A stretch of 39,345 nucleotides of DNA from an uncultured Selenomonadaceae bacterium (GTDB taxonomy: Bacteria; Bacillota; Negativicutes; Selenomonadales; Selenomonadaceae), in NCBI GenBank assembly GCA_905234705.1, contig CAJOIB010000012.1, forward strand, positions 21,407 to 60,751. Reading direction: 5' to 3'. The notes under the pieces were generated by a model, which saw only the letters and a list, made by a program, of their open reading frames with translations, had not been told where the DNA came from and did not search any database. This document shows positions 1 to 39,345 of this stretch, piece after piece. The position numbers and the translations under genes are program-made. Position 1 is the first letter of the stretch; each line of letters begins with the position of its first letter.

Positions 1-350
1 GTTGCGGCGGCGACCGCGATAATACCAAGCGCCCGATTATGGGGCGGCTGGCGGCTGAACTTTCCGATATTGTCATTGCCACGAGCGATAATCCTCGCAG
101 TGAAGATCCGGCTCAAATTCTGCGCGAGATTGAAGTTGGTATCAAAGAAAAAATCGGCGGCAAGATTTATGAATGCATACCCGACAGACGGGTGGCAATT
201 TTCCGTGCGGTTGAAATTGCTAAGGCGGGCGACATCATTTTGATTTTGGGCAAAGGTCACGAAAATTATCAGATTCTCAAGGATAAAACCATTCACTTCG
301 ACGATAAGGAAGTAGCTCACGAGGCTATTGGAGGTTTGATTAATGGATAA
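1..350 (+). CDS. murE: UDP-N-acetylmuramoyl-tripeptide synthetase, C-terminal fragment (5' end outside window)
   Basis: This is the last part of MurE, the cytoplasmic ATP-dependent ligase that adds the third residue of the peptidoglycan stem peptide to UDP-MurNAc-L-Ala-D-Glu. The reading frame is open from position 3, so the gene runs in from outside the window; the ATG at 39 is internal. The Mur ligase C-terminal domain is visible: the phrase [10 protein letters not shown] just before position 39, then SDNPRSEDP. The DNPR tetrapeptide is the known signature of enzymes that add meso-diaminopimelate rather than lysine. GKGHE follows near the end, as in the family. The stop codon overlaps the start of murF by 8 bases, which indicates translational coupling in the division/cell-wall cluster. 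Identity is secure; only the amino-terminal two thirds cannot be judged. Confidence 0.95.
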
Positions 351-1743
351 ATTGAGTTTGCAGGAAATTTTGAAAGCCACCGGCGCTGAATTAGGGAATA
401 GTGAAAAGGGAATAGGGACTAGTTCCATTACTAATCCCTATCCACTAACCCCTAAACCCTTTACTGGTGTAACGACTGACAGCCGCAAAATTACTGAAGG
501 CTTGCTTTTCGTTGCCTTGAAGGGCGAAAATTTTAACGGTGAAGATTTCGCGCAGGACGCAATTAATAAAGGCGCGGCGGCAGTTTTGGTCAGCAAATCC
601 GCAAAAAATATTGATGGCGTTATGATTATTGTTGACGATACATTGACTGCTTATCAGCAAATCGCCCGCAACTGGCGCGAACGTTTCAATATTCCTGTTG
701 TGGCGATAACCGGCTCAAACGGCAAAACTACCACCAAAGATTTAACCGCCGCTGTTCTCAGTTCATTGGGCAAAGTTTGTAAGACTACCGCGAATTTTAA
801 TAACGAAATCGGCGTACCGATGACTTTGCTTGAACTGAATGAAAATCACAAAGCCGCCGTTGTCGAAATTGGCATGCGCGGACTTCACCAAATCGAAAAT
901 CTCGCGCAGTACGTCAAGCCCACCATTGCCATTGTTACCAACGTTAACGAAACTCATATTGAATTGCTCGGCTCGATTGAAAATATCGCGCGGGCGAAAG
1001 GTGAACTTGTGCAGGCGATTAAAGCGGGCGGCACTGTCATTCTTAACGCCGATAATCCTTATACGCTGAATATGAAAAAAATTGCCGCGCCCAACGTCCG
1101 GATTTTTACGTACGGTCTGGAAAATGCGGCTGATTTGACGGCGGAAAATATTTTTGTCAATGGCAGTATGACGAATTTTGTTTTGAAATATGGCGGCGAA
1201 AGTTACGATTTTGAGATACCGGTAATTGGGCGGCACAATGTTTCAAATGCGTTGGCGGCGATAGCGGCGGGCTTGAGCGTCGGCTTGACGATTGACGAAA
1301 TTAAGCGCGGCATTTCCACTTTGACAACAACAAAAATGCGCTTTGAAGTTATTCGCCGCGACGGTTTGACGATTGTTAATGACGCTTACAACGCCAGCCC
1401 TGCGTCGATGCGTGCCGCGATTCAAACTGTGGCTGAAGTTTATAACGCGCGCAAAATTGCCGTGCTGGGCGATATGCTTGAACTCGGCGATATTTCTAAA
1501 AAAGTTCATCGCGAAATTGGCGCTGAAGTGGTTGCAAATAATTTCGACACGCTGATAACTTATGGCGAACTTGGGAAATTTATTGCGGACGGCGCGAAGG
1601 ACGCGGGCTTGAAAAATATTTTCGTCACGGATACGCACGAAGCCGCCGCTAAAAAAATTCGTGAAGTTGTGCGGCAGGGCGACGTGATTTTATTCAAGGC
1701 GTCTCACGGTATGCATTTGGAAAAAGTTATCGAGCTGATTTGA
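343..1743 (+). CDS. murF: UDP-N-acetylmuramoyl-tripeptide--D-alanyl-D-alanine ligase with in-frame repeat insertion
   Basis: MurF joins D-Ala-D-Ala to the UDP-MurNAc-tripeptide, the last cytoplasmic step of stem-peptide synthesis. The 466-aa product has the three Mur ligase domains: an N-terminal UDP-binding part with GVTTDSRKI and LFVALKGE, the central ATPase domain with the P-loop [12 protein letters not shown] (about residues 123-134), and a C-terminal domain with NDAYNASP and LGDMLELG. Start ATG 343 overlaps the murE stop. The oddity is near residues 17-40: between the usual start helix and the TGVTTDSR motif lies a stretch (bases 391-460) that is a copy of an imperfect palindromic DNA repeat also found twice outside genes in this window. 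It is translated in frame and adds roughly 20 residues rich in N, P, T and S. All catalytic motifs remain, so the enzyme is probably active. Confidence 0.96.
391..460. repeat. Imperfect palindromic repeat, copy R1, in frame inside murF
   Basis: The segment begins TTAGGGAATAGTGAAAAGGG and ends CTAACCCCTAA, so its arms are imperfect inverted copies of one another. Similar arms and the inner phrase ATAGTGAAAAGGG recur at 20191-20229, and TTAGGGGATAG...CCCTAACCCCTAA recurs at 23088-23166. Here it sits inside the murF reading frame without a stop or frameshift, which resembles the in-frame palindromic elements known from Rickettsia. Exact borders are uncertain by a few bases. Confidence 0.75.
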
Positions 1744-1779
1744 GAGGTTTAAAATGTTAGAAATTTTATCAGCGTAGTT

Positions 1780-2688
1780 GTGCTGATTCTCGGACCGGTG
1801 GCAATTCCGTTACTTCACAGATTAAAATTCGGGCAAAGTATACGCACCGAAGGACCGGCGAGCCATCAGAAAAAAAGCGGTACGCCGACAATGGGCGGAA
1901 TTTTTATGATAACGGCAATAGTTATCGCCACGCTCATTCGCGCAGAATTAACCACGGAAATAATTTTGGCGCTGTTCATATTAATCGGGCATTTCGTACT
2001 TGGATTTTTGGACGATTATATAAAAGTCGTGAAGAAGCGCAATTTGGGGTTGCGGGCGTGGCAAAAACTTTTGGGACAAATAATAATCGCCGCTGTGACA
2101 ATTTTCATAGCGACGAAAGAATTAGGCATAGCCACAAACTTATGGATTCCGCTTGCAAATACGAATATAGATTTAGGCGTGCTTTATTACGTGCTGGTTT
2201 TGCTGGTAATAGTGGGCGCGTCGAACGCGGTAAATTTGACTGACGGATTAGACGGCTTAGCGTCGGGCGAAATGGCGATAGCGTCAAGCGTGTACTGCGC
2301 GATATGTTTAATAACGGGACACGGCGAATTGGCGATATTTTGCGCGGCGATAGTTGGCGCGTGCATAGGATTTTTGAGATTTAATTTTCATCCGGCAAAA
2401 ATTTTCATGGGCGACACCGGCTCATTGGCATTGGGCGGCGCATTCGCGGCGATGGGAATTTTGACGCACACCGAATTATTATTGCCAATCGTGGGATTCG
2501 TTTTTGTTTGCGAAGCGCTGTCAGTCATTTTGCAGGTAATATCATTTCAAACAACCGGCAGAAGAATTTTCAAAATGAGCCCGATACATCACCACTTTGA
2601 ACTTAGCGGCTGGAGCGAATTGAAAGTTGTATTCGTATTTTGGGCGACAGGATTAATCGCGGGCATTATTGGCTTGCTGATTATATGA
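1780..2688 (+). CDS. mraY: Phospho-N-acetylmuramoyl-pentapeptide transferase, 5' end frameshifted
   Basis: MraY is the multi-pass membrane enzyme that transfers phospho-MurNAc-pentapeptide to undecaprenyl phosphate, making lipid I. Family motifs are clear: LLHRLKFGQSIR, HQKKSGTPTMGG, the catalytic DD in FLDDYIKV, NLTDGLDGLASG with its Asp residues, and SPIHHHFEL near the end. About ten hydrophobic segments are present. The natural start is almost certainly ATG 1754, preceded by GAGAGG and reading MLEILSA, but that frame hits TAG at 1775; the conserved frame continues as VVVLILGP one register away. Compared with homologues about six or seven residues of the first membrane helix are missing, so a deletion of roughly 19-22 bases explains both the shift and the loss. 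The listed start 1780 is only the first in-frame GTG. MraY is normally essential, so sequence error is a serious possibility. Confidence 0.9.
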   Translation: MLILGPVAIPLLHRLKFGQSIRTEGPASHQKKSGTPTMGGIFMITAIVIATLIRAELTTEIILALFILIGHFVLGFLDDYIKVVKKRNLGLRAWQKLLGQIIIAAVTIFIATKELGIATNLWIPLANTNIDLGVLYYVLVLLVIVGASNAVNLTDGLDGLASGEMAIASSVYCAICLITGHGELAIFCAAIVGACIGFLRFNFHPAKIFMGDTGSLALGGAFAAMGILTHTELLLPIVGFVFVCEALSVILQVISFQTTGRRIFKMSPIHHHFELSGWSELKVVFVFWATGLIAGIIGLLII

Positions 2689-2719
2689 TTTCGTAAATTG
2701 GAGGTGGAATGCGGCTGTT

Positions 2720-3268: not shown

Positions 3269-4506
3269 ATCAACGTAGCAAAATAATCGTCAAGGGTTTC
3301 TGCGCGACGAATCAATTCAATTTCGCCGCTCTCGCGCAGTAAAAGTTCAGCGCTCCGCAATTTTCCATTGTAATTAAAGCCCATGGCGTGCCCGTGCGCG
3401 CCGGTATCGTGAATAATCAAAATGTCGCCAATGTCAATTTTCGGCAGGGCGCGGTCAATCGCGAATTTATCATTGTTTTCGCAAAGTGAGCCCGTCACGT
3501 CGTAAATATTTTCAGCAGCGGCATTTTCTTTGTCCAAAATTGTAATGTGGTGATACGCGCCATAAAGCGCCGGACGCATCAGATTTGCCATACAAGAATC
3601 CAAGCCGATATAATTTTTGTAAGTATTTTTTTCGTGAATGACAGTCGAAACAAGCCAGCCCGCGTCGCCGGTCATAGCGCGCCCGCTCTCGGTGGCGATT
3701 CTGATTTTGTCTAAGCCGTTAGCAATTAAAATTTTATCGTAAAGTTCGTGGATACCCGCGCCAATCGCTTTATAATCGACAGGCAAATCTTCTGGACGAT
3801 ACGGAATGCCGAAGCCGCCGCCCAAATTCACAAATTCTAAATCAATGCCAAGCCGATTTTTAATTTCAACCGCCAGCTCAAACATAATCCGCGCCGTGTA
3901 CAAAAAAGTTTCAGTGCCGCGTTCGTTCGAGGCTATCATTGTATGCAAGCCAAAACGTTTAACGCCCTTGTCCTGCGCGATTTTGTAAGCGTCGAAAATT
4001 TGTTGCCGCGTCAAACCGTATTTCGCCTCAGCCGGACGCCCGATAATGTCATTGCCAACATTCATAATATCGGCGGGATTGTAGCGGAAGGACAAAACTT
4101 TTGGCATACCGGCGTTTTTTTCAAGAAAATCAATATGAGTAATATCGTCAAGATTGATAATCGCGCCGAGTTTAATTGCCGCTTGAAATTCATCGGCGGG
4201 CGTATCGTTTGACGTGAGCATAATTTTTTCGCCGGTAACGCCAGCCATTTCGCTAATTTTCAATTCGGCAAGAGAACTGCAATCTGTACCCGCGCCGTCT
4301 TTCGCCAAAATTTTTACAATGTGCGGATTGGGCGTAGCTTTTACCGCGAAATGCTCAATGTAGCTTGGCGCAAATGAAAAAGTTTCGCGCAGGCGGCGGA
4401 AATTCGCACGGATTTTCTTTTCGTCGTAAATGTGAAATGGCGTCGGATATTTTTTTATCACTTCGCGCAGAGTCTTTGAATCCAGCGGAAATGTTTTGTT
4501 CGTCAT
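3265..4506 (-). CDS. lysA: Diaminopimelate decarboxylase
   Basis: PLP-dependent fold-III decarboxylase of 413 aa that converts meso-diaminopimelate to lysine in the cytoplasm. Visible motifs: HFAVKATPNP carrying the PLP lysine (about residue 50), GLHTMI and LGGGFGIPY of the phosphate-binding barrel loops, ESGRAM, and SLCENNDKFA with the active-site Cys-Glu of the C-terminal beta domain contributed across the dimer. The start ATG 4506 is chosen because AAAGGTGG lies 8 bases upstream and because the extra 29 residues of the longer frame have no family counterpart. Related fold-III enzymes act on lysine/ornithine or carboxynorspermidine; the CEN motif and overall resemblance favour diaminopimelate. 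It is transcribed from its own promoter at 4535-4543. Confidence 0.87.
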   Translation of the reverse strand: MTNKTFPLDSKTLREVIKKYPTPFHIYDEKKIRANFRRLRETFSFAPSYIEHFAVKATPNPHIVKILAKDGAGTDCSSLAELKISEMAGVTGEKIMLTSNDTPADEFQAAIKLGAIINLDDITHIDFLEKNAGMPKVLSFRYNPADIMNVGNDIIGRPAEAKYGLTRQQIFDAYKIAQDKGVKRFGLHTMIASNERGTETFLYTARIMFELAVEIKNRLGIDLEFVNLGGGFGIPYRPEDLPVDYKAIGAGIHELYDKILIANGLDKIRIATESGRAMTGDAGWLVSTVIHEKNTYKNYIGLDSCMANLMRPALYGAYHHITILDKENAAAENIYDVTGSLCENNDKFAIDRALPKIDIGDILIIHDTGAHGHAMGFNYNGKLRSAELLLRESGEIELIRRAETLDDYFATLI

Positions 4507-4639: not shown

Positions 4640-5426
4640 ATGAATAAATTTTTCAAGAGAGTGCTGACGCTTAGCTTGACTCTGGCGTTTCGCGGGCAAT
4701 TTGTATTTGCCGAAAAATTATAAAGCCGGTAAAAAATATCCTGCGATTATTACGGTTCATCCTGGCGGCGGCGTCAAGGAGCAAACTTCCGGACTTTACG
4801 CAATGAAGCTTGCTGAAAAAGGTTATGTGACGCTGGCATTTGATGCAACTCATCAAGGCGAAAGTGAAGGAACGCCGCGCTATCTTGAAAATCCTGCTGA
4901 CAGGGTTGAAGATATTCGTAGCGCAGTTGATATTGGCACGACTTTTCGTCAAGGCTGGACGGGCGACGGCACGCTTGAAAGTCAAATCGCTACTTTGAAC
5001 GCCATAGCTAAACAACGTACCGCCGAAGCTAACGGCGCTGCTCCGCAATATACAAAATACGTTCCGGAACAAAATGAAATTACGGCTGACACTCACCGCG
5101 ATATGGCGGAGGCGTCCGAATATTACCGTACAAAGCGCGGGCAACATAAAAACGCGGCTAACAGAGTTTTATTCACCAGCTTTGATAAAGTTTTGGCGTA
5201 TAATTCTTTCGCGCAGATTGACACTTTATTGACGCAACCGTTGCTTTTAATCGCCGGAACTGAAGCAGGTTCGTTGTGGCAAAGTCAATTAGCGTATGAC
5301 AAGGCGACCGGTTCAAAAGAATTGTATTTGATTGACGGCGCGACGCATATGGATTTGTACGATATTGAAAAGTACGTTAATCAAGCCGTCGAAAAGATGA
5401 ATAAATTTTTCAAGCAGAATTTGTAA
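4640..5426 (+). pseudogene. Secreted alpha/beta hydrolase (dienelactone-hydrolase-like), degraded
   Basis: ATG 4640, with AAGGGGG upstream, opens a signal peptide (MNKFFKRVLTLSLTLAF) but this frame ends at a TAA after about 27 codons. The hydrolase body continues in another frame from about 4701: LPKNYKAGKKYPAIITVHPGGG, then LAFDATHQGESEG, ending with a conserved GATHMDLYD that carries the catalytic His. Between DIRSAVD and IGTTFRQGWTGDG roughly 40 residues expected in this family are missing in frame, and they include the nucleophile elbow (GxSxG or GxCxG); no such motif remains. So both the export signal and the nucleophile are disconnected or gone. The downstream MerR gene starts 2 bases after its stop, suggesting that the two were one operon. 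I treat it as a pseudogene, unless the gaps are assembly errors. Confidence 0.75.
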
Positions 5427-5428
5427 TT

Positions 5429-5905
5429 ATGACAGTTAAAGACGTTGCGAAAAAAACGGGCTTGACGCCGCACACGATTAGATATTATGCTAAGGAAGGA
5501 CTTTTGCCGACGGTCAAGCGCAATAGTCACGGCGTGCGGATTTTCACGGAAAATGATTTAGAGGCAATTTATATTATCGAGTGCTTGAAAAATTGCGGAA
5601 TGACGCTGAAAGAAATTAAGCAATTCACTGATTGGACAATGGCGGGCGATTCGACGATTGATAAGCGCCTTGAACTTTTTCGTAATAAATTTGCCGATTT
5701 GCAGGAAAAAATTCGTTGTATGAATGAAACGCTTGATGCTCTGCGCTATAAAATTTGGTTTTACGAAGTCGCGCAGGACGCAGGCACGGTTGACATTCAC
5801 GATACATTGGCGGCTGAAGAAATTCCTGTTGAAATGCGTGAAATTCGCGCGCGTATGAAACACGTTGACCGCTTTACCAACAGAAATTTTTGGAAGGAGT
5901 CGTGA
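5429..5905 (+). CDS. MerR-family transcriptional regulator
   Basis: A 158-aa cytoplasmic DNA-binding protein. Residues 1-70 form the MerR winged helix-turn-helix: MTVKDVAKKTGLTPHTIRYY, then EGLLPTVKR and RIFTENDLEAI, and GMTLKEIKQF at the second helix-turn-helix. Residues 80-125 form the dimerisation coiled coil. There is no cysteine cluster of the metal-sensing type; the pattern fits the YfmP/AdhR-like group that responds to aldehydes or oxidative stress and is often linked to aldo/keto reductases and glyoxalases, which is exactly what surrounds it here in broken form. It follows the hydrolase relic by 2 bases and precedes the glyoxalase relic by 5 bases. The gene appears intact while its likely targets are decaying. 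Confidence 0.88.
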   Translation: MTVKDVAKKTGLTPHTIRYYAKEGLLPTVKRNSHGVRIFTENDLEAIYIIECLKNCGMTLKEIKQFTDWTMAGDSTIDKRLELFRNKFADLQEKIRCMNETLDALRYKIWFYEVAQDAGTVDIHDTLAAEEIPVEMREIRARMKHVDRFTNRNFWKES

Positions 5906-6347: not shown

Positions 6348-7340
6348 ATGAAATTGGCGATTTTGGGCACAGGTTTTATTGTCAAAGAGGGCGCGTTGCC
6401 AGCGCTGAAAAATGTTCCGGAGATTGAAGTTGCGGCGATATTTGCTTTGCCGCGCAGTAAAGAAACTGCTGAAGCGCTCGCGGCGAAAAATGAAATTCCG
6501 GCAGTTTATACCGATTATGACGAATTGCTCGCGAATCCGGAGATTGATTTTGTTTATATCGGATTAGTCAACAGCGTGCATTACGAATACACAAAGCGCG
6601 CGCTCTTGGCTGGCAAAAATGTTATCGTCGAAAAACCTTTCGCGTCGACGGCGGCTGAAGTTGCTGAACTGCGCGATTTGGCTTTGTCAAAAAATCTGTA
6701 CGTGTTTGAAGCGGTGACTTTGAGATATTTACCAAATTTCGCGGCGATACGTGAGGCTTTGCCGAAATTGGGCAAGATTCGCGCAGTGGTTGCAAATTAT
6801 TCGCAGTATTCGAGCCGCTATGACAAATATTTAGCCGGTGAAGTTTTGCCGGTGTTCGACCCGCAACGTTCGGGCGGCGCTCTTTACGATATCAATATTT
6901 ACAATTTGAATTTTATAATTGGGCTGTTCGGCGCGCCTGCGGAAGTTCAATACACGGCGAATATCGGCTTTAACGGCGTTGACATTTCGGGTTTGGTTAC
7001 TATGAAGTACGACGGATTTTTTGCGACGGCGTTGGGCGCGAAAGATTCAGAAAGTCCCAGCTTTGTCAGCATTCAAGGCGAAAAGGGCTACGTCAAAGTT
7101 TTGGGCGCGCCAAATGAATTGACTGCATTTGAAATGCACCTGCGCAATTCCGGCGAAATTACCAAGTATGAGCTGAATAAATATTCTCATCGAATGGTTC
7201 ACGAATTTAAAGAATTTGAGCGCATTTATCGCGAGAAAAATTTTAACGAAATGCGCGATTGGCTTGACGTTTCACTGGCGGTGTTGCAGACGGCGGAAAA
7301 AGCGCGTAAGCAAGCCGGAATAGTTTTTGCGTGTGATTGA
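6348..7340 (+). CDS. Gfo/Idh/MocA-family NAD(P)-dependent oxidoreductase
   Basis: A 330-aa cytoplasmic dehydrogenase. The Rossmann start is AILGTGFIV (residues 3-11), the catalytic lysine motif EKPFAST lies near residue 96, and the C-terminal alpha/beta half contains SGGALYDINIYN, which holds the Asp and His-equivalent positions of the family. Homologues oxidise or reduce sugars, inositols or dihydrodiols; the exact substrate cannot be read from sequence. The start at ATG 6348 is preceded by GGGGCGG. Twelve bases separate its stop from the aldo/keto reductase relic, with GAGGAGG in the gap, so both were an oxidoreductase pair in one operon. Full length with no missing motif. Confidence 0.88.
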   Translation: MKLAILGTGFIVKEGALPALKNVPEIEVAAIFALPRSKETAEALAAKNEIPAVYTDYDELLANPEIDFVYIGLVNSVHYEYTKRALLAGKNVIVEKPFASTAAEVAELRDLALSKNLYVFEAVTLRYLPNFAAIREALPKLGKIRAVVANYSQYSSRYDKYLAGEVLPVFDPQRSGGALYDINIYNLNFIIGLFGAPAEVQYTANIGFNGVDISGLVTMKYDGFFATALGAKDSESPSFVSIQGEKGYVKVLGAPNELTAFEMHLRNSGEITKYELNKYSHRMVHEFKEFERIYREKNFNEMRDWLDVSLAVLQTAEKARKQAGIVFACD

Positions 7341-7352: not shown

Positions 7353-8489
7353 ATGAGCGGTAAACTTGGATTTGGAATGATGCGGTTGCCATTAGTGGAA
7401 ATTAAAAATCCTGCGAATGACGCGGTGAGTGCAAATCGCGTTAATGGTTGGGACGACCGCTATGAAATTAATCACGAGCAGGTTAAGCAAATGGTTGACG
7501 CATTTATCGACGCGGGCTTTACTTATTTTGATACCAGCTACGTTTATCTGAAAATGCGCAGTGAGCCGGAAGTTCGCGAGACTCTGGTTTACATTGGCGA
7601 CGAAATTGCCGACTTTCAGCATTACTGAAAAATCTCAAGTCGCGCAGATTTTCGAGGAACAACTTCAAAAATGCGGCGTTGACTACTTCGACTATTATTT
7701 GCTGCATAACATTCAAAATCACCTGTACGACCAATATATTACACCGCTGAAAGAATTTGAGTACGCGAAACAGCAGAAAGACGCGGGGCGGATTCGGAAT
7801 TTGGGCTTTTCATTTCACGATTCGCCGGAGTTGCTCGACAGGATTTTGACTGAGCACCCCGAAGTTGATTTTGTGCAAATTGCGCTCAGTTATTACGATT
7901 GGAACAGCCCGTTTGTACGGTCGCGCAGGTGTTATGAAGTTAAGTTGTGGTTATGCAGCCGGTTAAGGGCGGCACTTTGGCGAATATTCCGGCTGAGGCT
8001 GTCGAGATTTTGAAGGCGGCTAATCCAAATCTTTCGCCCGCGTCTTGGGCTATCAGATTCGGCGCGAGTTTGGACGGCGTTATCACCGTTTTATCCGGTA
8101 TGTCATCTCTCGCGCAGGTCAATGATAATATTTCCTATATGAAAGATTTTACGCCGCTGACTGACGCCGAAAAAGATATGCTCGTCAATCAGATTGTGCC
8201 GATAATAAAGCGCAGTGGTCCTTTCAAAACGGCGGATTTCAGCAAATATGAAGGTATCGCCGATAATGGAATGCCGGTCGCCGCAATGCTCGACGCTTAC
8301 AACAGCTGTATGATTCAGCCAGATCCCACTTACAGCACTGAAAATAATTACTATAAAACGTTCCGGCTTGACGCGAAAATTCCTGCGGGACAAAGCTGGA
8401 TTAGCGGCAAACTCATTGACAAAGACGGTAACGACGTTACTGAAACCGTCCGCAAAGTCGAAAAGTGGCTTATGGATAATACTTTCTAA
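7353..8489 (+). pseudogene. Aldo/keto reductase broken by two frame-shifting deletions
   Basis: Three frames together spell one aldo/keto reductase. Frame one (7353-7560) gives KLGFGMMRLPL and GFTYFDTSYVY, with the catalytic Asp and Tyr. Frame two (about 7570-7940) gives TLATKLPTFS, KCGVDYFDYYLLHN and IRNLGFSFHDSPELLD. Frame three (about 7947-8489) gives VVMQPVKGGTLANIP, SPASWAIRFGAS and VLSGMSS. At the first junction (RETLV to TLATKLP) homologues have seven extra residues, consistent with a 23-base loss; at the second (CYEV to VVVMQP) about seven residues are missing, consistent with 19 or 22 bases. The C-terminus lacks the ferredoxin-like cysteines seen in many relatives. A good GAGGAGG lies 9-15 bases before ATG 7353. 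As read the product would be short fragments. Confidence 0.85.
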
Positions 8490-10318: not shown

Positions 10319-11588
10319 TCTCAAAATCTTTCGGGCTGTAATATTTATCGGTGTGCAAAAATTCATCCTTGACAACTTGCCCGTTGTTGTAATACACGCG
10401 ATAAATCGAAGGATTCATACCGTTGCCGTCGCTCTCAATGACAATTTCGTTGCCGCCCAAATCAGCCTTCGTTCCCAAAACAAAAACCGTCAGCGTCGAA
10501 CCCGAAGCGTAAGCCGTCAGATAAACCGGATGCGGCAAATCATTTCTAAATTTAAAATCAATCTGCTCGTCAGCAACCGTGGCGTCCCTACCCGCGCTAA
10601 CATAACCGGACGGGAAAAAATGCGCTGTACGTTCGGTAGGTGTCAAGCCCGCCAAAAGTACCGCGTTATAAAGCGTAGAACTGACTTGACAAACACCGCC
10701 GCCTACGCCGTCTTCAGTTTTGCCGTTGATAATAACTGGCGCATTTTGATAACCGGCGCTGTACGTGCGCGGACCAACCGTATCGTTGAAGGAAAATACC
10801 CAGCCGGTTTTTAAAATTTTATCGGAAATGGAATTAGCCGCCAGCCAAATATTATCGCCGCGCGCGCCTGGATAATAATAAGTCGTGTATTCGCCGAGAA
10901 TCGAATCAATCTGCGCGACATCTTCAGTTGTAATGAACGGCGGAATTTCTTCGGGCGTCAAATCGATTTTGTTAGGCAGATTTAAATTCGTGAGCGGCTC
11001 TTTCAAAGACGCGGCGAGTTGGTCGCGGTCGAGTTTTTTGCCGATAACGCCAGGAATTTTCTCAACGCCATTTTCTGAAACGTAGCAAACAGCGTTAACC
11101 GGCTGCGTATCGATTTTGTCAGCAATTTCGTCGATTTTTTGAGCTAAAAGTTTTTCGTCGTACTTAGCCGTCAATGGAACTTCGCGCCCTTTGGTAAAAC
11201 AGCTGATTTGTTCACCGAGATTTTGAAAAAAAGTACCGCCGCGCCCGTAACTTTCAGCCTGCGCGACAGATTTGTCGATTTGCGGCGTCAAGGCAATTTC
11301 AGCCGGATTGATTTTAAATTCTTCGTTGCCGTAAGTGAAAGTCAGCGGATGAATTTTTTGATTAGCGGCGCTCTGAAAAAAAGTTCGAGCGGAAGGCTCG
11401 CTCAAGCCGCCAATCGGACGCCCTTCAAATTTGACGCCGGAAATAATTTTGTCGCTATCAGCAATGGAACTTGAAACCGCCGCCGCCGTTATTCCCGTCG
11501 CCAAAACCAGCGCCGAGGCTATTATCGGCAATTTGTTTGTCGCCAATATATTTTTCCAGTCGAGATTTTCTAAATTTAAAACTTGCAT
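10308..11588 (-). CDS. VanW family protein with peptidoglycan-binding-like domain
   Basis: A 426-aa envelope protein. It begins with a short cytoplasmic stretch and one membrane segment (about residues 19-40), followed by an extracytoplasmic domain of the YoaR-like/putative peptidoglycan-binding type (about residues 90-215, GVKFEGRPIGGLS at its start), and then the VanW domain with GWVFSFNDTVGPRT and GGGVCQVSSTLYNA (about residues 265-305). VanW was named from glycopeptide-resistance clusters, but its biochemical activity is not established; it is widespread in Firmicutes as a cell-wall-associated protein. ATG 11588 is chosen because AAAGGAG lies 8-9 bases upstream; 13 extra codons of the longer frame are not needed. 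It heads a two-gene operon with DUF1850. A TTGACA at 11664-11659 on the minus strand could be its -35, but I find no convincing -10. Confidence 0.9.
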   Translation of the reverse strand: MQVLNLENLDWKNILATNKLPIIASALVLATGITAAAVSSSIADSDKIISGVKFEGRPIGGLSEPSARTFFQSAANQKIHPLTFTYGNEEFKINPAEIALTPQIDKSVAQAESYGRGGTFFQNLGEQISCFTKGREVPLTAKYDEKLLAQKIDEIADKIDTQPVNAVCYVSENGVEKIPGVIGKKLDRDQLAASLKEPLTNLNLPNKIDLTPEEIPPFITTEDVAQIDSILGEYTTYYYPGARGDNIWLAANSISDKILKTGWVFSFNDTVGPRTYSAGYQNAPVIINGKTEDGVGGGVCQVSSTLYNAVLLAGLTPTERTAHFFPSGYVSAGRDATVADEQIDFKFRNDLPHPVYLTAYASGSTLTVFVLGTKADLGGNEIVIESDGNGMNPSIYRVYYNNGQVVKDEFLHTDKYYSPKDFENVD

Positions 11589-26926: not shown

Positions 26927-26936
26927 ATAAATAAAT

Positions 26937-27036: not shown

Positions 27037-27037
27037 C

Positions 27038-27059
27038 GCCGCCATCCGTGGCGGCTTTT
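27038..27059 (+). terminator. Terminator after mscL
   Basis: GCCGCCA and TGGCGGC form a seven-pair stem with a four-base loop, followed by TTTT. It lies just before the convergent thiE stop. Confidence 0.7.
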
Positions 27060-27072
27060 GTTGGTTATTTAG

Positions 27073-27768
27073 TTATTTGTTCATTCGCCAAACGTCAACT
27101 AATTCTTTAGCCGCAACGTACGGATTTTCAGCGCCCGCCACTGCTGACACTACAAAAAATCCTGCAACACCAGTTTTTACCAACGCCGGAATATCCGCCA
27201 TTTTAACGCCGCCGCCAACAACTACCGGCAATGAACTAATTTTCGCCAACATAGAAAGTTCAGCCAAATCACGCGTAATAATCCTGCCGTCAGCTGTAAC
27301 TCCGCAATCCGGCTTTGTCGCCGTCTCGTGCAACGGTCCTGCTCCAAAATAATCTATCTGCGAAATGTCCGCCGTCTTCACATAATCAATCAAATTTTCA
27401 GTGCGCGCGCTCAATCCAACAACCGAATCTTCGCCCAAATATTTCCGGCACACTTCAACCGGAATATCACTTTGCCCAACGTGCACGCCGTCAACTTTAA
27501 CGCCAATTTCACGCGCCGCCAATGCAATATCCAGCCGGTCATTGACAATCAACGCGACGCTTTCACTTTTGCCAAGATTAGCAATAACGTCGGCACATTT
27601 TTTCAGCGTAGAAATAATTTCGCGGGCGCTTGACTTCTTCGAGCGAATCTGAACAAATGTAAATCCTGCGCGAATCGCCTGTTCAACAACGTCCTCAACA
27701 GGGCGCGAAGTATTTTCAGCGCCGATTATCAAATAAGCCGATAAATCAAAATTCTTGCGAATGCTCAT
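27073..27768 (-). CDS. thiE: Thiamine phosphate synthase
   Basis: ThiE couples hydroxymethylpyrimidine pyrophosphate and thiazole phosphate to thiamine phosphate in the cytoplasm. The 231-aa TIM-barrel protein has FVQIRSKKSSAREI (substrate pyrophosphate region), LIVNDRLDIALAA, GVHVGQSDIP, VVGLSARTE, YFGAGPLHETATKPD and VVVGGGVK, in family order. The GPL-HET-TK loop replaces the more common GPVFPTPTK, a variant seen in several ThiE proteins. Its ATG overlaps the thiM stop by four bases (ATGA), so the two are translationally coupled. The pyrimidine-providing thiC/thiD are not in the window; with thiM next door this pair fits thiazole salvage. Confidence 0.93.
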   Translation of the reverse strand: MSIRKNFDLSAYLIIGAENTSRPVEDVVEQAIRAGFTFVQIRSKKSSAREIISTLKKCADVIANLGKSESVALIVNDRLDIALAAREIGVKVDGVHVGQSDIPVEVCRKYLGEDSVVGLSARTENLIDYVKTADISQIDYFGAGPLHETATKPDCGVTADGRIITRDLAELSMLAKISSLPVVVGGGVKMADIPALVKTGVAGFFVVSAVAGAENPYVAAKELVDVWRMNK

Positions 27769-29223: not shown

Positions 29224-29295
29224 GAAATTTTTTGCGTTGCCAAAATCGCCGCTCATAAGTTATAATTGCGAAAAATATTAGGAGGTCGCGCAGAT

Positions 29296-30075
29296 TTGGA
29301 TTTTGTAGATACTCACTGCCACTTGAATGACGAAAAATTTGCTGACGATTTGCTTGAAGTTGTCGGGCGCGCTGAAAATGCGGGCGTGCGGCGGGTTATA
29401 AATTTTGGCGATACGCTGAAAAGTTCTGCGGCGGTTGTGGAACTTGCGGCGAAATTTGCGAATATGTTTGCGGGCGTCGGCGTTCACCCCGAAGAAATTT
29501 CCGGCTTTGATAAAAATTCTGCCGATAAAATTATTGAGCTGGCGGCGCAGAAAAAAGTTGTGGCGATTGGCGAAATTGGGCTTGATTATTATTGGGAAAA
29601 AGATTCTGACGCGCGGCTAATGCAGCAGAAAATTTTCATTGAGCAGCTTGACATTGCGCGGCAGTTGAATTTGCCGGTATGCATTCACGAACGCGAGGCT
29701 CACGGCGACGCTTTAAAAATTTTAAAAACTGAAGCTAAGGGTTTACGCGGCGTTATGCATTGTTATTCGGGCAGTTTGGAAATGGCGCGTGAAATTTGGA
29801 GACTTGGCTGGTTAATTGGCGTTGACGGTCCGCTGACTTTTAAAAATTCGGCGAAACTTCCTGAGATTGTCAAAGCCGCTCCGCGCGAAATGATTTTGCT
29901 TGAAACTGATTCGCCTTACTTAGCGCCCGTGCCCAATCGCGGCAAACGCAATGAGCCGAGTTTTGTTGTTGACGTGGCGAAAAAAATTGCTGAAATTCGC
30001 GGCGAAAATCTTGAAACCGTCGCGCAGTACACGACCGAAAATGCCGAAAGACTTTACAATATCAAGGAGGGCTGA
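29296..30075 (+). CDS. tatD: TatD-family metal-dependent hydrolase (DNase)
   Basis: A 259-aa TIM-barrel metalloenzyme of the TatD group, which shows 3'-5' exonuclease or deoxyribonuclease activity in characterised members. Metal-binding motifs are complete: DTHCHLND at the start, IGEIGLDYYW with the bridging Glu (about residue 91), IHERE, MHCYSG, and ETDSPYLAP near residue 205. The start TTG 29296 is favoured because the protein family begins just before xDTHCHL and GGAGG lies 10 bases upstream. Its stop is 4 bases before the DUF4127 gene, with AAGGAGG overlapping the end, so both are one transcription unit. Family identity is certain, cellular role less so. Confidence 0.92.
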   Translation: MDFVDTHCHLNDEKFADDLLEVVGRAENAGVRRVINFGDTLKSSAAVVELAAKFANMFAGVGVHPEEISGFDKNSADKIIELAAQKKVVAIGEIGLDYYWEKDSDARLMQQKIFIEQLDIARQLNLPVCIHEREAHGDALKILKTEAKGLRGVMHCYSGSLEMAREIWRLGWLIGVDGPLTFKNSAKLPEIVKAAPREMILLETDSPYLAPVPNRGKRNEPSFVVDVAKKIAEIRGENLETVAQYTTENAERLYNIKEG

Positions 30076-30079: not shown

Positions 30080-31699
30080 TTGAAACGGCGAATATTTTTT
30101 TTGTTGATAATGGCGGGGGTGATGATTTTTTCGATGGCGGCGGCGTTCGCGGAAGACATTGGGCGCGGCAAAACGCTGATTTACATTCCGATTGACAACC
30201 GCCCCGTGAATTTGAAGCAAACCGTTGAATTGGCGGAGCGACTTGGTTATGAAGTGCTTGTACCGCCGCAAATTTTTTTAGGGACGGGCGCTGACAGTTC
30301 CAAATTCGGCAACCCCGAGGAACTTTGGTATTGGCTGAATAAAAATGCGCATCGTGCGGACGCGGCGATTATTTCAACTGACGCCGTGCTTTATGGCAGT
30401 TTAGTTGCGTCGCGGCAACACGAAATGAGCGTTGAGGAAGTTTTGACGCGCGCTAGAAATTTTGAGATTTTTCATGAGGATTTTCCCTACCTGCCGATTT
30501 ACGCCTTTGGTACGATTATGAGGACGCCGCGCTCCGGCAGTTATTCCAGCGCCGAGCCAGAATATTACAAGCAATTCGGCGAAATGATTTTTAACTACAC
30601 CGCGCTCAAAGATAAATCCGAAACCGATAAACTTACTGAAAAAGAGCAGGCTGAATTTGCGCGCCTTGAAAATGAAATTCCCAAAGAGGCGCTTGAAGAT
30701 TGGCTAGGTCGCCGCGCGAAAAATTATGACGTTCACCAATACCTTGCTGAATTGACGGCGGCGGGCATTTTCAATTATTTTTTGGTGGGCTGCGACGATA
30801 GCGCGATGTTTTCGCAGACGCATTTGGAGAGCCGCCACTTGACAGCTTACGGCAACGATTTGGATTTGGGCAAGACGCGTTTTCAAGTTATGTCCGGCGC
30901 TGATGAACTTGGTATGCTGATGATTTCGCGCGCCATTAATAACGATTTGCACCGCATTCCGCTTATTGCAATTGATTATAACATTGGCACAGGCGCTAAT
31001 ACTGTTCCTACTTTCAGCAATGAAAAAATCAGCGAATCCCTTGAAGGTGCGATAATTTCTGTGGGCGGCGTTCGCATTCAGAATATCGAAAATGCCGATT
31101 TGATTTTGTCAGTGAATACTTTTCCGAATGGCAAAACTTTTAGCTCGGATAACAAAATTAATCGCGTTAAGCCGCACAGTGGCATTGGCTTTTTTGTTGA
31201 CGATATGAAAAAATTTATCAAGAAAGGCTACGCTGTGGGCGTTGTGGATATTTCTATGAGCAACGGCGCGGACAATTCTTTGATGCGGCGACTCAGAGAT
31301 GCCAAATTGCAATTCAAAATTCGCTCGTACGGCGGCTGGAATACTGCGTCGAACAGCGCGGGATTTTTGATTGGTGCGGGCGTTTTGACGCGCTATATGA
31401 GCGACAACGATTTTTACAATTTGCTTTTGCAGAGATATTTGGACGATTGGGTTTATCAAGCGAATCTTCGCACGCAGATTAACGGCGGCTTGATTTGGAC
31501 AGTTCCTGGCGAGGGTGGCTTGTGGAATTTAGACGGACGTCGCGCAGGACTTGAAACTTTAACTGCCGATTTGGTTAAAAAATTTGTCGACGAAAATATA
31601 ATCTTGCCGGACGGTTACGTTTTGGAAAATATTTCGGTTGATTTTCCCTGGAATAGAACTTTCGAGGCGGATATTTCCTTCGATTTGATTAAGCAATAA
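30080..31699 (+). CDS. Secreted DUF4127 family protein
   Basis: A 539-aa exported protein. The N-terminus is a signal peptide (KRRIFFLLIMAGVMIFSMAA, cleavage after AFA near residue 24). The mature chain matches DUF4127: IYIPIDNRPVNLKQTVELAE at the start, ISTDAVLYGSLVASRQH, AFGTIMRTPRSGSYSSAEPE, LVGCDDSAMFSQTHLE and YGGWNTASNSAGFLIG. The function of DUF4127 is unknown; homologues are secreted or periplasmic and common in Firmicutes. The start TTG 30080 follows AAGGAGG by nine bases and overlaps no other gene. It forms an operon with tatD. TCGCGCAGG at 31540 encodes R-A-G in it. The gene is complete. Confidence 0.88.
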   Translation: MKRRIFFLLIMAGVMIFSMAAAFAEDIGRGKTLIYIPIDNRPVNLKQTVELAERLGYEVLVPPQIFLGTGADSSKFGNPEELWYWLNKNAHRADAAIISTDAVLYGSLVASRQHEMSVEEVLTRARNFEIFHEDFPYLPIYAFGTIMRTPRSGSYSSAEPEYYKQFGEMIFNYTALKDKSETDKLTEKEQAEFARLENEIPKEALEDWLGRRAKNYDVHQYLAELTAAGIFNYFLVGCDDSAMFSQTHLESRHLTAYGNDLDLGKTRFQVMSGADELGMLMISRAINNDLHRIPLIAIDYNIGTGANTVPTFSNEKISESLEGAIISVGGVRIQNIENADLILSVNTFPNGKTFSSDNKINRVKPHSGIGFFVDDMKKFIKKGYAVGVVDISMSNGADNSLMRRLRDAKLQFKIRSYGGWNTASNSAGFLIGAGVLTRYMSDNDFYNLLLQRYLDDWVYQANLRTQINGGLIWTVPGEGGLWNLDGRRAGLETLTADLVKKFVDENIILPDGYVLENISVDFPWNRTFEADISFDLIKQ

Positions 31700-33832: not shown

Positions 33833-34909
33833 TTATTCGAGTGCATTAGCGCCGCCGACAATTTCGTTAATTTCATTGGTAATACCGGCTTGACGAACTT
33901 TATTATAGTAAAGATTGAGTTTGCCGACCAGTTCCTGCGCGTTATCAGTAGCGTTGCTCATAGCGTTCATTCGCGAGCTCAATTCTGACGCCGCACTGTG
34001 CAACATAGCGCCGTAAATTCGCGTGGCAATTCTGCGCGGCAGGAAATCATTCAGCACCGATACAACGTCCGGCTCGTAAATGTATTCTTCCTTAGCATTA
34101 TTTTCGGAAGGATAATCATCAGTAACCAGCGGCAAAAGTGTAACATCGTCCGGCGTGCAACTGATAGCCGAATTGAATCGCGTATAAATCATAGTCACGT
34201 CGATAATCTCGCCGCTCATAAACCGCTCAATGATTAAATCGGCAATTTCTTTCGCGTACTGGTAACTGGGGCGCTCGCTGATACCGCTGTAATTTTTGAT
34301 AATATTGTAGCCGCGTTGTTTGAAATGACCGGTAGCCTTTCTGCCAACCGTGATTAATTCGATACCTTCAATATAATCTGCGTCGTGGTATTCCTGCGCG
34401 ACATTGACGGTTTTATTAGGCGTACGACGCCCGCCAGCCTTAGCAAAAGATTTTTGCGCGCGAAGTTGATCGGCGTCAATTCCAGTCATATTTTTAAGCG
34501 CGTCAACGTTTTGCTTATGAAAATTTTCTTCCTTAGATTCACCGGTCGGGCTAGTGCCGTCATATTCAATCGTAGCGTGAGCCTCTTTGAAAACGTTGCT
34601 CGAATAAGCGCCGGCTAAGCCTTTATCGGACGCAATTACCAAAAATAAAAATTTACCGTCCGTGCGTCCTTGCGCTTCAATTAATTCTTGCCGCGACATT
34701 ATGAAGGGACTTTCGCTCTCGGAACTGTTCATTTGCGTCATAAGCCGCGTTAAAATTTCGCGCGTCTTTTCTACGTACGGAATATTTGACAGTAAAGTAT
34801 CTCGCGCAGCGTTGAATCTGGAGCGGGCAATCATATCCATTGCGTTGGTTATTTTTTGAATGCTCTTGACGCTGCGGATACGGCGGCGAATGTTTTGTAA
34901 ATTTGCCAT
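33833..34909 (-). CDS. atpG: ATP synthase gamma subunit with internal insertion
   Basis: The rotating shaft of F1. The N- and C-terminal coiled-coil helices are clear (NLQNIRRRIRSVKSIQKIT; HSAASELSSRMNAMSNATDN; NLYYNKVRQAGITNEINEIV). At 358 aa it is about 65-70 residues longer than the usual 285-295. The extra length lies between SDKGLAGAYSSNVFKEA (about residue 105) and ELITVGRKATGHFKQRGYNI (about 195), a charged segment including ESKEENFHKQNVDALKNM and GGRRTPNKTVNVAQEYHDAD. This falls in the Rossmann-like globular part facing the foot of the stalk. ATG 34909 follows atpA with AAGGCGG upstream. Confidence 0.95.
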   Translation of the reverse strand: MANLQNIRRRIRSVKSIQKITNAMDMIARSRFNAARDTLLSNIPYVEKTREILTRLMTQMNSSESESPFIMSRQELIEAQGRTDGKFLFLVIASDKGLAGAYSSNVFKEAHATIEYDGTSPTGESKEENFHKQNVDALKNMTGIDADQLRAQKSFAKAGGRRTPNKTVNVAQEYHDADYIEGIELITVGRKATGHFKQRGYNIIKNYSGISERPSYQYAKEIADLIIERFMSGEIIDVTMIYTRFNSAISCTPDDVTLLPLVTDDYPSENNAKEEYIYEPDVVSVLNDFLPRRIATRIYGAMLHSAASELSSRMNAMSNATDNAQELVGKLNLYYNKVRQAGITNEINEIVGGANALE

Positions 34910-34929: not shown

Positions 34930-36408
34930 TCAGTAGTCTTGTACGCCTTCAAGCGCGTCGTCAAGTTTTTTCTTCTCAACAATTTTCTTGCCAATATCGG
35001 CGTGCCGCGAATGCATAAATTTCAAAAAGTCTGCGTGGAATTGAACAACTTTATCGACAGGAATATCAGTTAAAAATCCACGAACCGCCGTGAAAATCGT
35101 TAAAATCTGATCTTCAACCGGCAACGGCGAATATTGAGCCTGTTTCAAAGTTTCAACCATACGCGCGCCGCGGTCGAGCTGTGCCTTAGTCGCTTTGTCC
35201 AAATCTGAACCGAATTGAGCAAACGCCGCCAATTCACGATACTGAGCCAAATCAAGGCGCATTGTACCAGCAACCTGTTTCATAGCTTTAATCTGCGCTG
35301 AACCACCAACGCGCGAAACCGACAAACCAACGCTGATAGCCGGACGAATACCGGAATAAAACGAGTCAGTTTCCAACATAATCTGCCCGTCAGTAATTGA
35401 AATAACGTTAGTCGGAATGTAAGCCGAAACGTCGCCCGCCTGCGTTTCAATAATCGGCAAAGCGGTAATTGAGCCAGCGCCGAGCCTGTCACTAAGTTTA
35501 GCCGCGCGCTCCAAAAGTCTTGAGTGCAGATAAAAAACGTCACCAGGATAAGCTTCACGCCCAGGCGGACGTCTTAAAAGCAATGACATTGCACGATAAG
35601 CCGCCGCGTGTTTCGTCAAATCGTCGTAAATGCAAAGGCAATGTCCATGTTTTTCGTACATAAAATATTCCGCCATCGCAACGCCGGAGTACGGAGCAAG
35701 ATATTGCAACGGCGCAGAATCAGCCGCAGTAGCCGCAACGACGATTGAATATTCCATAGCGCCGCGGTCTTCCAACGTTTTAACAACGCGCGCAACTGTC
35801 GACGCCTTTTGTCCAATCGCCACGTAAATACAAATACAGTTTTGCCCTTTTTGGTTAATAATCGTGTCGATAGCAATAGCAGATTTACCGATACCGCGGT
35901 CGCCGATAATCAACTCACGCTGTCCGCGTCCAATCGGAACAAGCGCGTCGATAGCCTTTAAGCCGGTTTGCAGCGGCTCATGAACTGATTTTCTGTCAGC
36001 AATACCAGGCGCGGGATTTTCGACAGGGCGGAATTGCGAAGTTTCAATAGGTCCTTTGCCGTCAATCGGACGCCCGAGCGCATCAACTACGCGCCCAATC
36101 ATATTTTCGCCAACCGGAACTTGCATGATTCGCGCAGTGCGTTTAACGGTCGCGCCTTCTTTAATTTCGTTATCGCGACCAAGAATAACCGCGCCGACGT
36201 TGTCCTGTTCCAAGTTAAGAACCAAACCGTAAATATCATCGCCAAAATCAAGCAACTCGCCGGACATAGCCTTATCAAGCCCGTGAATGTGCGCGATACC
36301 GTCACCGACCTCAATAACCGTGCCGACCTCGTCAACATTCAAATCGACGTTGTAATTTTTAATCTGATTCTTGATTATGGCAGTAATTTCATCTGGATTA
36401 ATTTTCAT
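34930..36408 (-). CDS. atpA: ATP synthase alpha subunit, C-terminus probably frameshifted
   Basis: The regulatory nucleotide-binding F1 subunit, 492 aa as read. The Walker A is [15 protein letters not shown] (about residues 169-183); [14 protein letters not shown], the Arg-finger region [16 protein letters not shown], and the C-terminal helical domain are present. ATG 36408 (MKINPDEI) is chosen because the 24 residues before it read into atpH. Near the end, KKLDDALE is followed by GVQDY and a stop, whereas the next phase reads AYKTTEG and stops just before an atpG ribosome site. Homologues have about seven more residues between these blocks. A short deletion near 34945-34955 is therefore likely, the same pattern as in atpD, mraY and rpmI. 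Confidence 0.95.
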
Positions 36409-36418: not shown

Positions 36419-36961
36419 TCACCTCTGGACCGAAAGAGTATTTTGCAGGGAGCGCAGGCGACCGGCGGCGCTGCCGTCAATGCGTCTGTCTCCGATTGTT
36501 ACGATAAGTCCGCCGAGAATTGATGAATCTTCATGCTTGCGGATTTTAATTTTTTTGCCGGTAACGCTTGCAAGTTTTTTGCCGAGCTGATTTTCCTGTG
36601 TCTTAGTGAGCGGAAAAGCTGAAATAACGTCCGCCACCAAAATTCCCTGCGCGGCATTTTTCAACGCGGTGAAAATTTCGTAAATCTCATTGAAAATGCC
36701 AATGCGCCCTTTGTCAACCAGAATCATTAAGAAATTCATGGTGTTATCGGAAATTTCGCCGTCGAATGCCTTAGCAAGCAAATCTTTTTTAGCTTTGTGC
36801 GGAACGAGCGGATTTTGAAAAAACTTCACAGCTTCCGGCAGATTGAAAACATCTTCCTGGATTTTGGAAAGATCCTTATCGTATTCGTCAAGTTGATTGT
36901 CTTCCTGCGCGAGTTCAAAAATAGCGCGCGCGTACTTCGTGGCAAGCTGAATATTTAACAT
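36419..36961 (-). CDS. atpH: ATP synthase delta subunit
   Basis: A 180-aa peripheral-stalk subunit that joins subunit b to the top of F1. The N-terminal helical domain ([20 protein letters not shown]) and the conserved C-terminal block ([20 protein letters not shown], then RLRSLQNTL) are standard. ATG 36961 lies 12 bases after the atpF stop, with GAGGGGCGAG across the junction. Its stop is 10 bases before the atpA start. Complete. Confidence 0.94.
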
Positions 36962-36973: not shown

Positions 36974-37474
36974 TCACTTAGCATCTTCAAACATATTTTT
37001 ATCGAGACCGGAAATAAAATCGCTGACAAGTTTATCGTTTTCCTTGGAAGAAAGATTTTTGGCAACGATTTTTTCAGCCGCCGCTAAACTCAGCGAAATA
37101 ATTTCAGCCTTCATCTGGTCAAATGCGCGGTCGCGTTCGTTTTGGATTTCAAGCTGTGCATTTTGTTTCATGCGGTCAATTTCTTTTTTAGTTTCGGCAA
37201 CAAGTGCTTCGCGTTCTTGGCGCGCGGTTATTTCCGCTTTGTCGACGATTTCTTGAGCGCGTTTTTGAGCGTCGGCTAATTGACTTTTGTATTGCGCTAA
37301 AGTGTCTTCAGCGGCTTTTTTATCGGAATTAGCTTTGTCGATAGTTTCTTGGATTTTATCGGCGCGCTGTTGAAGCATTTTCGCAACGGGCTTGTACGCC
37401 AATGCACGCAGTATTGCGACCAAAATTAGGAAGTTCAAAATCTGCGCGATAAGTGTTGCGTTAAGTTCTATCAA
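36974..37474 (-). CDS. atpF: ATP synthase b subunit
   Basis: A 166-aa stator subunit: one N-terminal membrane helix (LIAQILNFLILVAILRALAY) and a long charged coiled coil that dimerises and reaches up to delta (ADKIQETIDKANSDKKAAED; AEITARQEREALVAETKKEI). The end (AAAEKIVAKNLSSKENDKL) matches the delta-binding part. ATG 37474 is preceded by GAAGGGGGG. Only one b gene is present, so the stator is a homodimer. Complete. Confidence 0.95.
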   Translation of the reverse strand: MIELNATLIAQILNFLILVAILRALAYKPVAKMLQQRADKIQETIDKANSDKKAAEDTLAQYKSQLADAQKRAQEIVDKAEITARQEREALVAETKKEIDRMKQNAQLEIQNERDRAFDQMKAEIISLSLAAAEKIVAKNLSSKENDKLVSDFISGLDKNMFEDAK

Positions 37475-37769: not shown

Positions 37770-37800
37770 TTAAATTTTCCTCCTCAAAATTTAAAATTAA

Positions 37801-38253: not shown

Positions 38254-38259
38254 TGTCAA

Positions 38260-38922: not shown

Positions 38923-38926
38923 AAAT

Positions 38927-39292
38927 TCACCTCCTCCCGAAATACGACAAAACACCCAGCGAGGTCAGGTAAAACATAACAAAACACACCGACGTTGCGA
39001 AAAAAAGCTCCGTCGATATGTGAACAGCCACCGCCAAAACTACAAAAACCATAGCCAGCCGCAATAACATTCCGATTAACATAATTCTCTTAGCTTGAGC
39101 CTGCTCGAATTTTGCCGCCGTTTCCAATCTTGCCGCCGCCGATACGAAATAGAAAACATTTAGAATCGCGCCAATCAAAATTGCGCCGCAAAGATAAATT
39201 TGCCCGCTGGAAAATAATTGTATCGCCATTATCGCGGCGACCGCTACGAACATTTTGTAACCTCGCCCGAAATTTAAAATAACCTGTCTCAT
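38927..39292 (-). CDS. atpI: ATP synthase protein I (AtpI-like)
   Basis: A 121-aa membrane protein with four hydrophobic segments (MFVAVAAIMAIQLFSSG; LCGAILIGAILNVFYFVSAA; IMLIGMLLRLAMVFVVLAVA; FFATSVCFVMFYLTSLGVL) and a polar centre (ARLETAAKFEQAQAKR). This matches the ATP synthase I family, which assists c-ring assembly or magnesium handling. It is the first gene of the operon here. ATG 39292 fits the family length, but no ribosome site is visible; an element repeated at 25499 lies directly upstream (39300-39331). A longer frame from TTG 39331 would translate that element. Confidence 0.82.
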   Translation of the reverse strand: MRQVILNFGRGYKMFVAVAAIMAIQLFSSGQIYLCGAILIGAILNVFYFVSAAARLETAAKFEQAQAKRIMLIGMLLRLAMVFVVLAVAVHISTELFFATSVCFVMFYLTSLGVLSYFGRR

Positions 39293-39299
39293 ATTGGCT

Positions 39300-39331
39300 A
39301 AACTTCGACGCGCTAAAAAATTTCCCTGCAA
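39300..39331 (-). repeat. Intergenic element TGCAGG-N15-GTCGAA, copy 2, upstream of atpI
   Basis: On the minus strand it reads TGCAGG, 15 bases, GTCGAAG, matching the copy at 25499-25531 with identical spacing and a shared 18-base block. A looser copy with TTGACA in place of GTCGAA forms the marR -35 at 12899-12926. It ends eight bases before the atpI start, so it may act in transcription or translation of the operon. Confidence 0.6.
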
Positions 39332-39345
39332 AAAAATTAATCGTA

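Follow-up and report, generated by a model that had tools for sequence, protein, structure and literature searches.

Over-represented oligomers have been placed in three classes, namely Chi sites, DNA uptake words and highly iterated palindromes (HIP) (Elhai, PMC4390886). DNA uptake that relies on a sequence tag has been reported from Neisseriaceae and Pasteurellaceae (PMC1939737, PMC7811141). The DNA uptake sequences (DUS) of Neisseriaceae exist as dialects, which share a core and follow phylogeny (PMC3630211), and the uptake signal sequence (USS) of Pasteurellaceae is present at about one copy per kb (PMC5397411). We analyzed a stretch of 39,345 nt from contig CAJOIB010000012.1 (hereafter the window), which belongs to a source genome of 2.05 Mb in 128 contigs with a completeness of 85%, and found the word TCGCGCAGG and its eight-base core TCGCGCAG repeated throughout this genome. 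The host is a Quinella-like bacterium of the ruminant gut and a member of the Negativicutes, which are outer-membraned (diderm) Bacillota. The results provide strong support for a maintained, exact and non-polar genome-wide signal that occurs in clade-specific dialects.

Like DUS, the Quinella word is short, is present in thousands of copies and comes in dialects. DUS are asymmetric and located on both strands. The Quinella word differs from them in belonging to another phylum and in consisting of eight bases plus the rule that the following base is not C. Its density is near that of USS, with which it has no sequence in common; USS are flanked by AT tracts, which are stronger than the mild AT preference found downstream of the Quinella word. 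HIP1 of cyanobacteria is likewise an exact octamer present in excess, and related genomes can carry another octamer in its place, but HIP1 is a palindrome linked with orphan methyltransferases, whereas the Quinella word is asymmetric. Chi sites are also short, asymmetric and over-represented; the Quinella word, however, shows no strand polarity.

Copy number, exact unit and layout of the word

The original prediction had put the copy number of TCGCGCAGG in the window at about 20. We found 22 exact copies, distributed over both strands, whereas 100 dinucleotide-preserving shuffles of the window contained a mean of 0.72 and a maximum of 3. All 15 positions named in the prediction were real, some of them displaced by 1 to 5 bases (3972 for 3969; 25056 for 25051), and the estimate of about 50 copies of CGCGCAG came close to the 55 counted, as compared to 14.3 expected from an order-2 Markov model. 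Within the window, TCGCGCAGG and its extensions headed the ranking of enriched 9- to 12-mers. The preference proposed for the bases following the word was reduced to a mere tendency towards a GAC tail, with TCGCGCAGGAC accounting for 8 of the 22 copies.

In the source genome, TCGCGCAGG was detected 423 times in forward and 432 times in reverse orientation (855 copies), and the reversed word 19 and 23 times (42 copies). The 9-mer is the 8-mer TCGCGCAG with G as ninth base, and the 8-mer itself reached 2294 copies, as compared to 253 for the control; 45 of its copies lie in the window. Throughout, whole-genome enrichment was judged against the reversed word, which is a crude control. Closer inspection was based on a sample of 20 stretches plus the window, amounting to 430,901 bases or about one fifth of the genome, in which 379 genes were called by a simple in-house procedure. 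TCGCGCAG was by far the strongest 8-mer of this 431 kb sample (523 observed, whereas an order-3 Markov model trained on the sequence after masking of the word predicted 16.8). Samples of the genome G010 (<2.5 kb) were excluded from k-mer and near-miss counts.

The 24 single-base neighbours of TCGCGCAG occurred 458 times in the sample of the source genome with 474 expected, demonstrating that a single letter change destroys the excess. Behind the 8-mer, A, G or T was enriched 11.6 to 17.5 times, whereas C was hardly enriched (9 observed versus 6.7 expected), and the unit is therefore TCGCGCAG[AGT]. Thus, the word first put forward is indeed enriched, but its core is one base shorter.

It had been argued that protein sequence cannot account for the word, and the counts within called genes bear this out. 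TCGCGCAG was present 492 times in genes, while 20 synonymous shuffles gave a mean of 39.3 and a highest value of 51; a repetition gave a mean of 40.0 and a highest value of 53. All six codon phases were enriched, some more than others (antisense phase 0 contributed 135 of the 492 copies), and sense and antisense orientation relative to the genes were almost balanced (249 and 241). Concerning a bias near gene ends, which had been suggested as a check, we observed a dip in the first tenth of the genes and otherwise a spread along the gene length. Both objections that the original prediction had raised against itself, namely a count explained by Markov or codon-aware models and a lack of enrichment elsewhere in the genome, were answered, as these models failed to predict the count and enrichment was present genome-wide.

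On average, copies of TCGCGCAG lay 788 bases apart, and their spacing (coefficient of variation 0.98) was close to random. Gaps below 100 bases were scarcer than in a random arrangement (25 versus 60), as were gaps of 3.2 to 6.4 kb (3 versus 8.5), and one gap exceeded 6.4 kb (0.1 expected). Neighbouring copies had the same orientation in 235 of 502 cases and the opposite one in 267 (0.468, CI 0.424-0.512), which limits any regional strand bias to at most 58:42. Within the 431 kb sample, word orientation was unrelated to local GC skew (120:133 and 139:131). This lack of skew is the outcome anticipated for an uptake word. The longest two stretches of the sample without the word (L020 8922-16429 and L028 7257-13189) hold dnaK-dnaJ-like and ffh/flagellin-like genes, named by their reading frames. 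Judging from this content, genes under strong codon constraint would seem to resist the word; an explanation of the gaps as deserts of mobile DNA was discarded on the basis of these two gaps, the only ones read.

Dialects in the genus and conservation of word sites

In named genomes, sequences related to the AtpG of the window come mostly from uncultured ruminant Selenomonadaceae including Quinella sp. 1Q5, 1Q7 and 2Q5, the closest one found being from a reindeer bin (94%). Quinella is assigned to the Negativicutes by NCBI. In a tree built from 34 AtpG rows, the window and five other rows formed one group with a support of 100/99, and the genomes of all six rows hold 636 to 2335 copies of TCGCGCAG.

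Comparison of related genomes, which had been proposed as a check, revealed two dialects that differ in their first base, T (TCGCGCAG) and C (CCGCGCAG). The genus panel comprised 66 genomes, all of them bins or drafts, and a dialect was called when the whole-genome count was at least three times that of the reversed-word control, which is an arbitrary line. Seven genomes carried TCGCGCAG only, 24 carried CCGCGCAG only, two both and 33 neither, several of the latter being situated just below the line (e.g. G070, G170 and G152, each at 2.9). T and C counts were 2294 and 132 in the source genome, 2335 and 170 in its sister G012, 306 and 2007 in G144, and 270 and 1602 in G128. The two genomes with both words are G168, with small counts, and G172. 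Both words are abundant in G172 (C 1244, T 772) and in G159 (C 1058, T 625), and these two genomes may possibly be intermediates or mixed bins.

In a pool of 36 loci from relatives (538 kb, without L049-L056, L084, L093, L094 and the loci L096-L127 from other genera), CCGCGCAG was found 211 times with 31 expected, and TCGCGCAG only 75 times with 27 expected. The C word, too, exceeded the counts given by synonymous shuffles: genes of the G144 sample (240 kb) contained 188 copies versus 15.2 by synonymous shuffle, and those of the G128 sample (160 kb) 106 versus 7.5. The not-C rule is common to both dialects, since CCGCGCAGC occurred once in G144 and was absent from G128. Neither sample displayed polarity (97 neighbours in the same and 117 in the opposite orientation in G144; 45 and 64 in G128).

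Outside the genus, the 9-mer exceeded the reversed control several-fold in other genera of the family, e.g. G003 (161 versus 19) and G057 (123 versus 16), and likewise in G071 and G122. In Selenomonas artemidis the whole genome contained 669 copies versus 326 of the control, and the word was absent from the top enriched 7- to 9-mers in nine sampled stretches. The word had seemed to be confined to the plus strand in this species, which was a listing artefact, as the nine stretches carry it on both strands.

Word sites were conserved beyond their surroundings. In the sister genome G012 (89.8% identical over 119 kb aligned), the word was intact at 135 of 148 sites, while the baseline was 51.0% for all 8-mers and 52.0% for 8-mers of equal GC content. 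Within the eight bases of the word, column identity ranged from 0.966 to 0.986; it dropped to 0.905 immediately before and 0.892 immediately after the word. Among the 105 8-mers that occurred 40 times or more, TCGCGCAG ranked as the most conserved one; the reversed word survived at 20 of 24 sites, which is high but based on small numbers. G079 (86.6% identity) retained 20 of 22 sites. At about 76-77% identity the signal faded, with 17 of 42 sites intact in G167 and 3 of 8 in G150 (baseline about 18% for 8-mers in general and 23-24% for those matched in GC content), and G138 had 4 of 18 sites intact versus 18.6% of all 8-mers. Against C-dialect relatives (294 aligned pairs, 73.5% identity), the T sites corresponded to T in 35 cases, to C in 22 and to A or G in one, and the word was lost in 236; most T sites have thus turned over. 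Alignments shorter than 500 bases (8-mer ranking), 400 bases (column identity) or 200 bases (turnover of T sites) and overlapping lower-scoring alignments were dropped, and gapped sites were excluded from the turnover analysis.

Candidate machinery and proposed function of the word

The original prediction had likened the word to uptake sequences and Chi sites. We are inclined, by a slight preponderance, to regard it as a genome-wide self-recognition word that works as a DNA uptake word and is maintained via natural transformation. This reading is favoured because the layout and the dialects fit it best and machinery genes are present. Concordant with uptake words are the non-palindromic sequence, the abundance of the 8-mer and 9-mer, the occurrence on both strands, the lack of polarity and the existence of related dialects. 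One subclade of the Quinella-like bacteria would keep the word, followed by A, G or T, on both strands and at a density of about one per 0.8-0.9 kb. A pilus-borne DNA receptor, for which a pseudopilin with a C-terminal GRxR is the candidate, may prefer word-bearing fragments, which would enter by the type IV pilus/ComEA/ComEC route and then recombine. By recombination, word-bearing alleles would replace word-less ones, and the word would accumulate where codons permit. If sister species read CCGCGCAG[AGT], the first base would therefore be the species-specific letter.

The search for competence genes and minor pilins, which had been recommended, was successful in part. In the source genome, ComEA (helix-hairpin-helix, E 4.7e-26) adjoins ComEC (E 7.3e-55) and PilT adjoins PilC, while pseudopilins were seen in relatives only. 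PF07963 matched in 16 of the 66 genomes at E values up to 0.1, four of them over the cut-off, and a hand-written scan for pilin N-termini was therefore added. A pseudopilin cluster was seen in the T-dialect genomes G012 and G079, with four genes, and G150, G160 and G167, with three each; it is located near a trpC-like gene (named by reading) in G012 and G167, the two surroundings that were read. Of the 13 stretches scanned in C-rich or C-leaning genomes, seven showed pilin-like frames and six showed none; pilin-like genes also occur in two genomes using neither word, G058 and G098.

The first pilin of the cluster ends with GRxR in 10 of 11 aligned genomes, G092 having GRWS instead. A conserved C-terminal GRxR helps FimT to bind DNA, and a similar motif exists in Gram-positive Com pilins (Braus et al., PMC8897410). 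The candidate thus resembles FimT of Legionella in its C-terminus, but differs in matching families only weakly (best E 4.9e-06; GspH 7.1e-06 among members), and its match to solved pilins is confined to the N-terminal helix. A minor pilin is also the predicted reader of USS according to a study of USS co-evolution (PMC12616744). Matches to PF11104 (PilM_2) in 60 of 66 genomes, mostly frames of approx. 640-950 amino acids of uncertain identity, were not used.

Several observations weigh against a function in uptake. The machinery is equally present in genomes without the word: ComEC was found in 62 of the 66 genus members, also where the word is missing, and a PilC/T2SSF domain in 64, with Tad homologues counted, so that it is not word-specific. 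The PF07963 search detected no pilin in the source genome, a negative of little weight because this genome is 85% complete and even the match in its sister G012 reaches only E 0.0036; the searched stretches of the T-dialect genome G138 contained Tad-type pilins only. Half of the genus (33 of 66) shows neither word at the threefold line. Classic uptake words have enriched near-misses. The near-misses of the source genome amounted to 416, compared to 490 to 502 by synonymous shuffle, and totals were flat in G000, G012 (514 versus 529) and G138 (64 versus 65); they were raised in the C-dialect genomes G144 (273 versus 234) and G128 (154 versus 118) and in the weaker T-dialect genomes G167 (214 versus 130) and G150 (225 versus 149), the latter two having TCGCGCTG raised 4 to 5 times. 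Intergenic and inverted-pair copies, which are frequent in typical uptake words including DUS, are not favoured either. Called genes contain all but 33 of the 523 copies, while 10.8% of the sample is located outside them, showing that intergenic DNA is not favoured by the word, and of 15 neighbour pairs closer than 60 bases four are in opposite orientation. In the G012 alignment, site flanks were hardly above average conservation, and therefore no recombination tract is visible. Finally, Quinella is described as being without cultures (PMC9585023).

Among the alternatives, a HIP-like octamer kept by a DNA methyltransferase or by methylation-dependent repair, with no link to uptake, appears unlikely. 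In length, high frequency and sharp boundaries the word resembles HIP1, and in exceptional genomes HIP1 is reported to have disappeared while other HIP words arose (Elhai 2015, PMC4390886). The source genome and G012 each hold two matches to the C5 methylase family. Whereas HIP1 is palindromic, TCGCGCAG is not its own reverse complement and obeys a one-sided not-C rule. Moreover, the C5 methylase family, the one family tested, was present in 46 of 66 genomes and did not track the word; it was absent from the enriched G150 (81% complete) and had five matches, some of them partial, in the weakly enriched G070. This distribution is inconsistent with a C5 methylase as the cause of the word.

Equally doubtful is a non-polar word for chromosome organisation or repair, kept by weak selection per site and concerned with neither uptake nor methylation. 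The exact sequence, the lack of polarity, the strong conservation per site at 90% identity and the scarcity of short gaps are consistent with such a role. It is opposed by the otherwise near-random spacing, the gap exceeding 6.4 kb, the loss of the word at 236 of the 294 aligned T-site pairs in C-dialect relatives and the half of the genus with neither word. With similar reservation one may consider a fourth class of signal word beside Chi, uptake and HIP words with an own reader in diderm Bacillota. The traits that would tentatively define this class are a word that is asymmetric yet non-polar, exact, with one forbidden next base, situated in genes and switching its first letter between clades. 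A Chi word for recombination or an FtsK orienting polar sequence (KOPS) is very improbable: copy number and length are within the right range, but both the T and the C dialect lack the required strand polarity and orientation is unrelated to GC skew, which led us to reject this part of the original proposal. A by-product of codon usage, composition or repeats, which the preference for some phases such as antisense phase 0 would favour, is next to impossible, since Markov and synonymous-shuffle models remain far below the observed counts, all six phases are enriched, one base change abolishes the excess and conservation stops at the word edges.

If the word does serve DNA uptake, it would point to an independent origin in outer-membraned Bacillota and show that self-DNA tagging evolves repeatedly; the two readable dialects would then allow the reader to be found by co-evolution. 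Veillonella parvula belongs to the same class as Quinella. It prefers genomic DNA, yet an uptake word was thought unlikely by the authors, who detected no sequence of at least 10 bases that reached 100 copies and did not decide on shorter sequences (PMC5397411). The Quinella word bears on this question of genomic-DNA preference. Otherwise, relatives of an iconic and as yet uncultured bacterium of the rumen would maintain a word throughout their genomes for some other use.

The assumption that no such word is described for this group held in searches of the open-licence literature, where no uptake word for Negativicutes, Veillonella/Selenomonas or Bacillota was reported, judging by titles and the beginnings of abstracts. 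Among the listed papers mentioning the letters of TCGCGCAGG, none is about these bacteria by its title, and the main text of the Quinella genome paper does not contain the terms 'motif', 'competence' and 'pili' (PMC9585023).

Word positions and further features of the window

Copies of TCGCGCAG with G as ninth base, i.e. copies of TCGCGCAGG, are located on the plus strand at positions 548-555, 4385-4392, 5769-5776, 7921-7928, 8110-8117, 13092-13099, 13959-13966, 14838-14845, 15292-15299, 16805-16812, 24136-24143, 24151-24158 and 31540-31547, and on the minus strand at 3973-3980, 11259-11266, 11967-11974, 16327-16334, 23959-23966, 25057-25064, 27666-27673, 34394-34401 and 36905-36912 (coordinates of the 8-mer). 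The 8-mer followed by another base is present on the plus strand at 902-909, 1938-1945, 3332-3339, 4463-4470, 5209-5216, 6779-6786, 7640-7647, 17623-17630, 19630-19637, 29286-29293, 30020-30027, 34802-34809 and 36130-36137, and on the minus strand at 120-127, 2295-2302, 3300-3307, 6669-6676, 10911-10918, 15725-15732, 19148-19155, 19930-19937, 21294-21301 and 37442-37449.

The ATP synthase gamma subunit encoded at 33833-34909 comprises 358 residues in the clade, whereas the matching regions of Selenomonas montiformis and Mitsuokella are 852 bases long, which corresponds to about 75 extra residues in the subunit of the clade. Two overlapping frames at 7561-8489 resemble, by eye, parts of one aldo/keto-reductase-like protein, an uninterrupted relative of which is encoded at L028 13267-14388; the region looks like a broken gene or an assembly error.

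Dispersed hairpin-like repeats were observed at 26935-27062 of the window and, among other places, at L009 7950, L011 15362 and L015 5056, 12188 and 16199. Those in the listed loci exhibit a core like AGTCACGTGATGTGACT between GC-rich arms and amount to 11 copies in nine stretches of the source genome, with further ones in G012. In the window copy the arms are similar (AAAGAAAG), and matches to this copy occur at many positions of sister genomes. A different repeat containing CACGCACCCCGTGA is present in 29 copies at a spacing of approx. 68 bases at L157 22-1934 (G172), where it looks like a CRISPR array.

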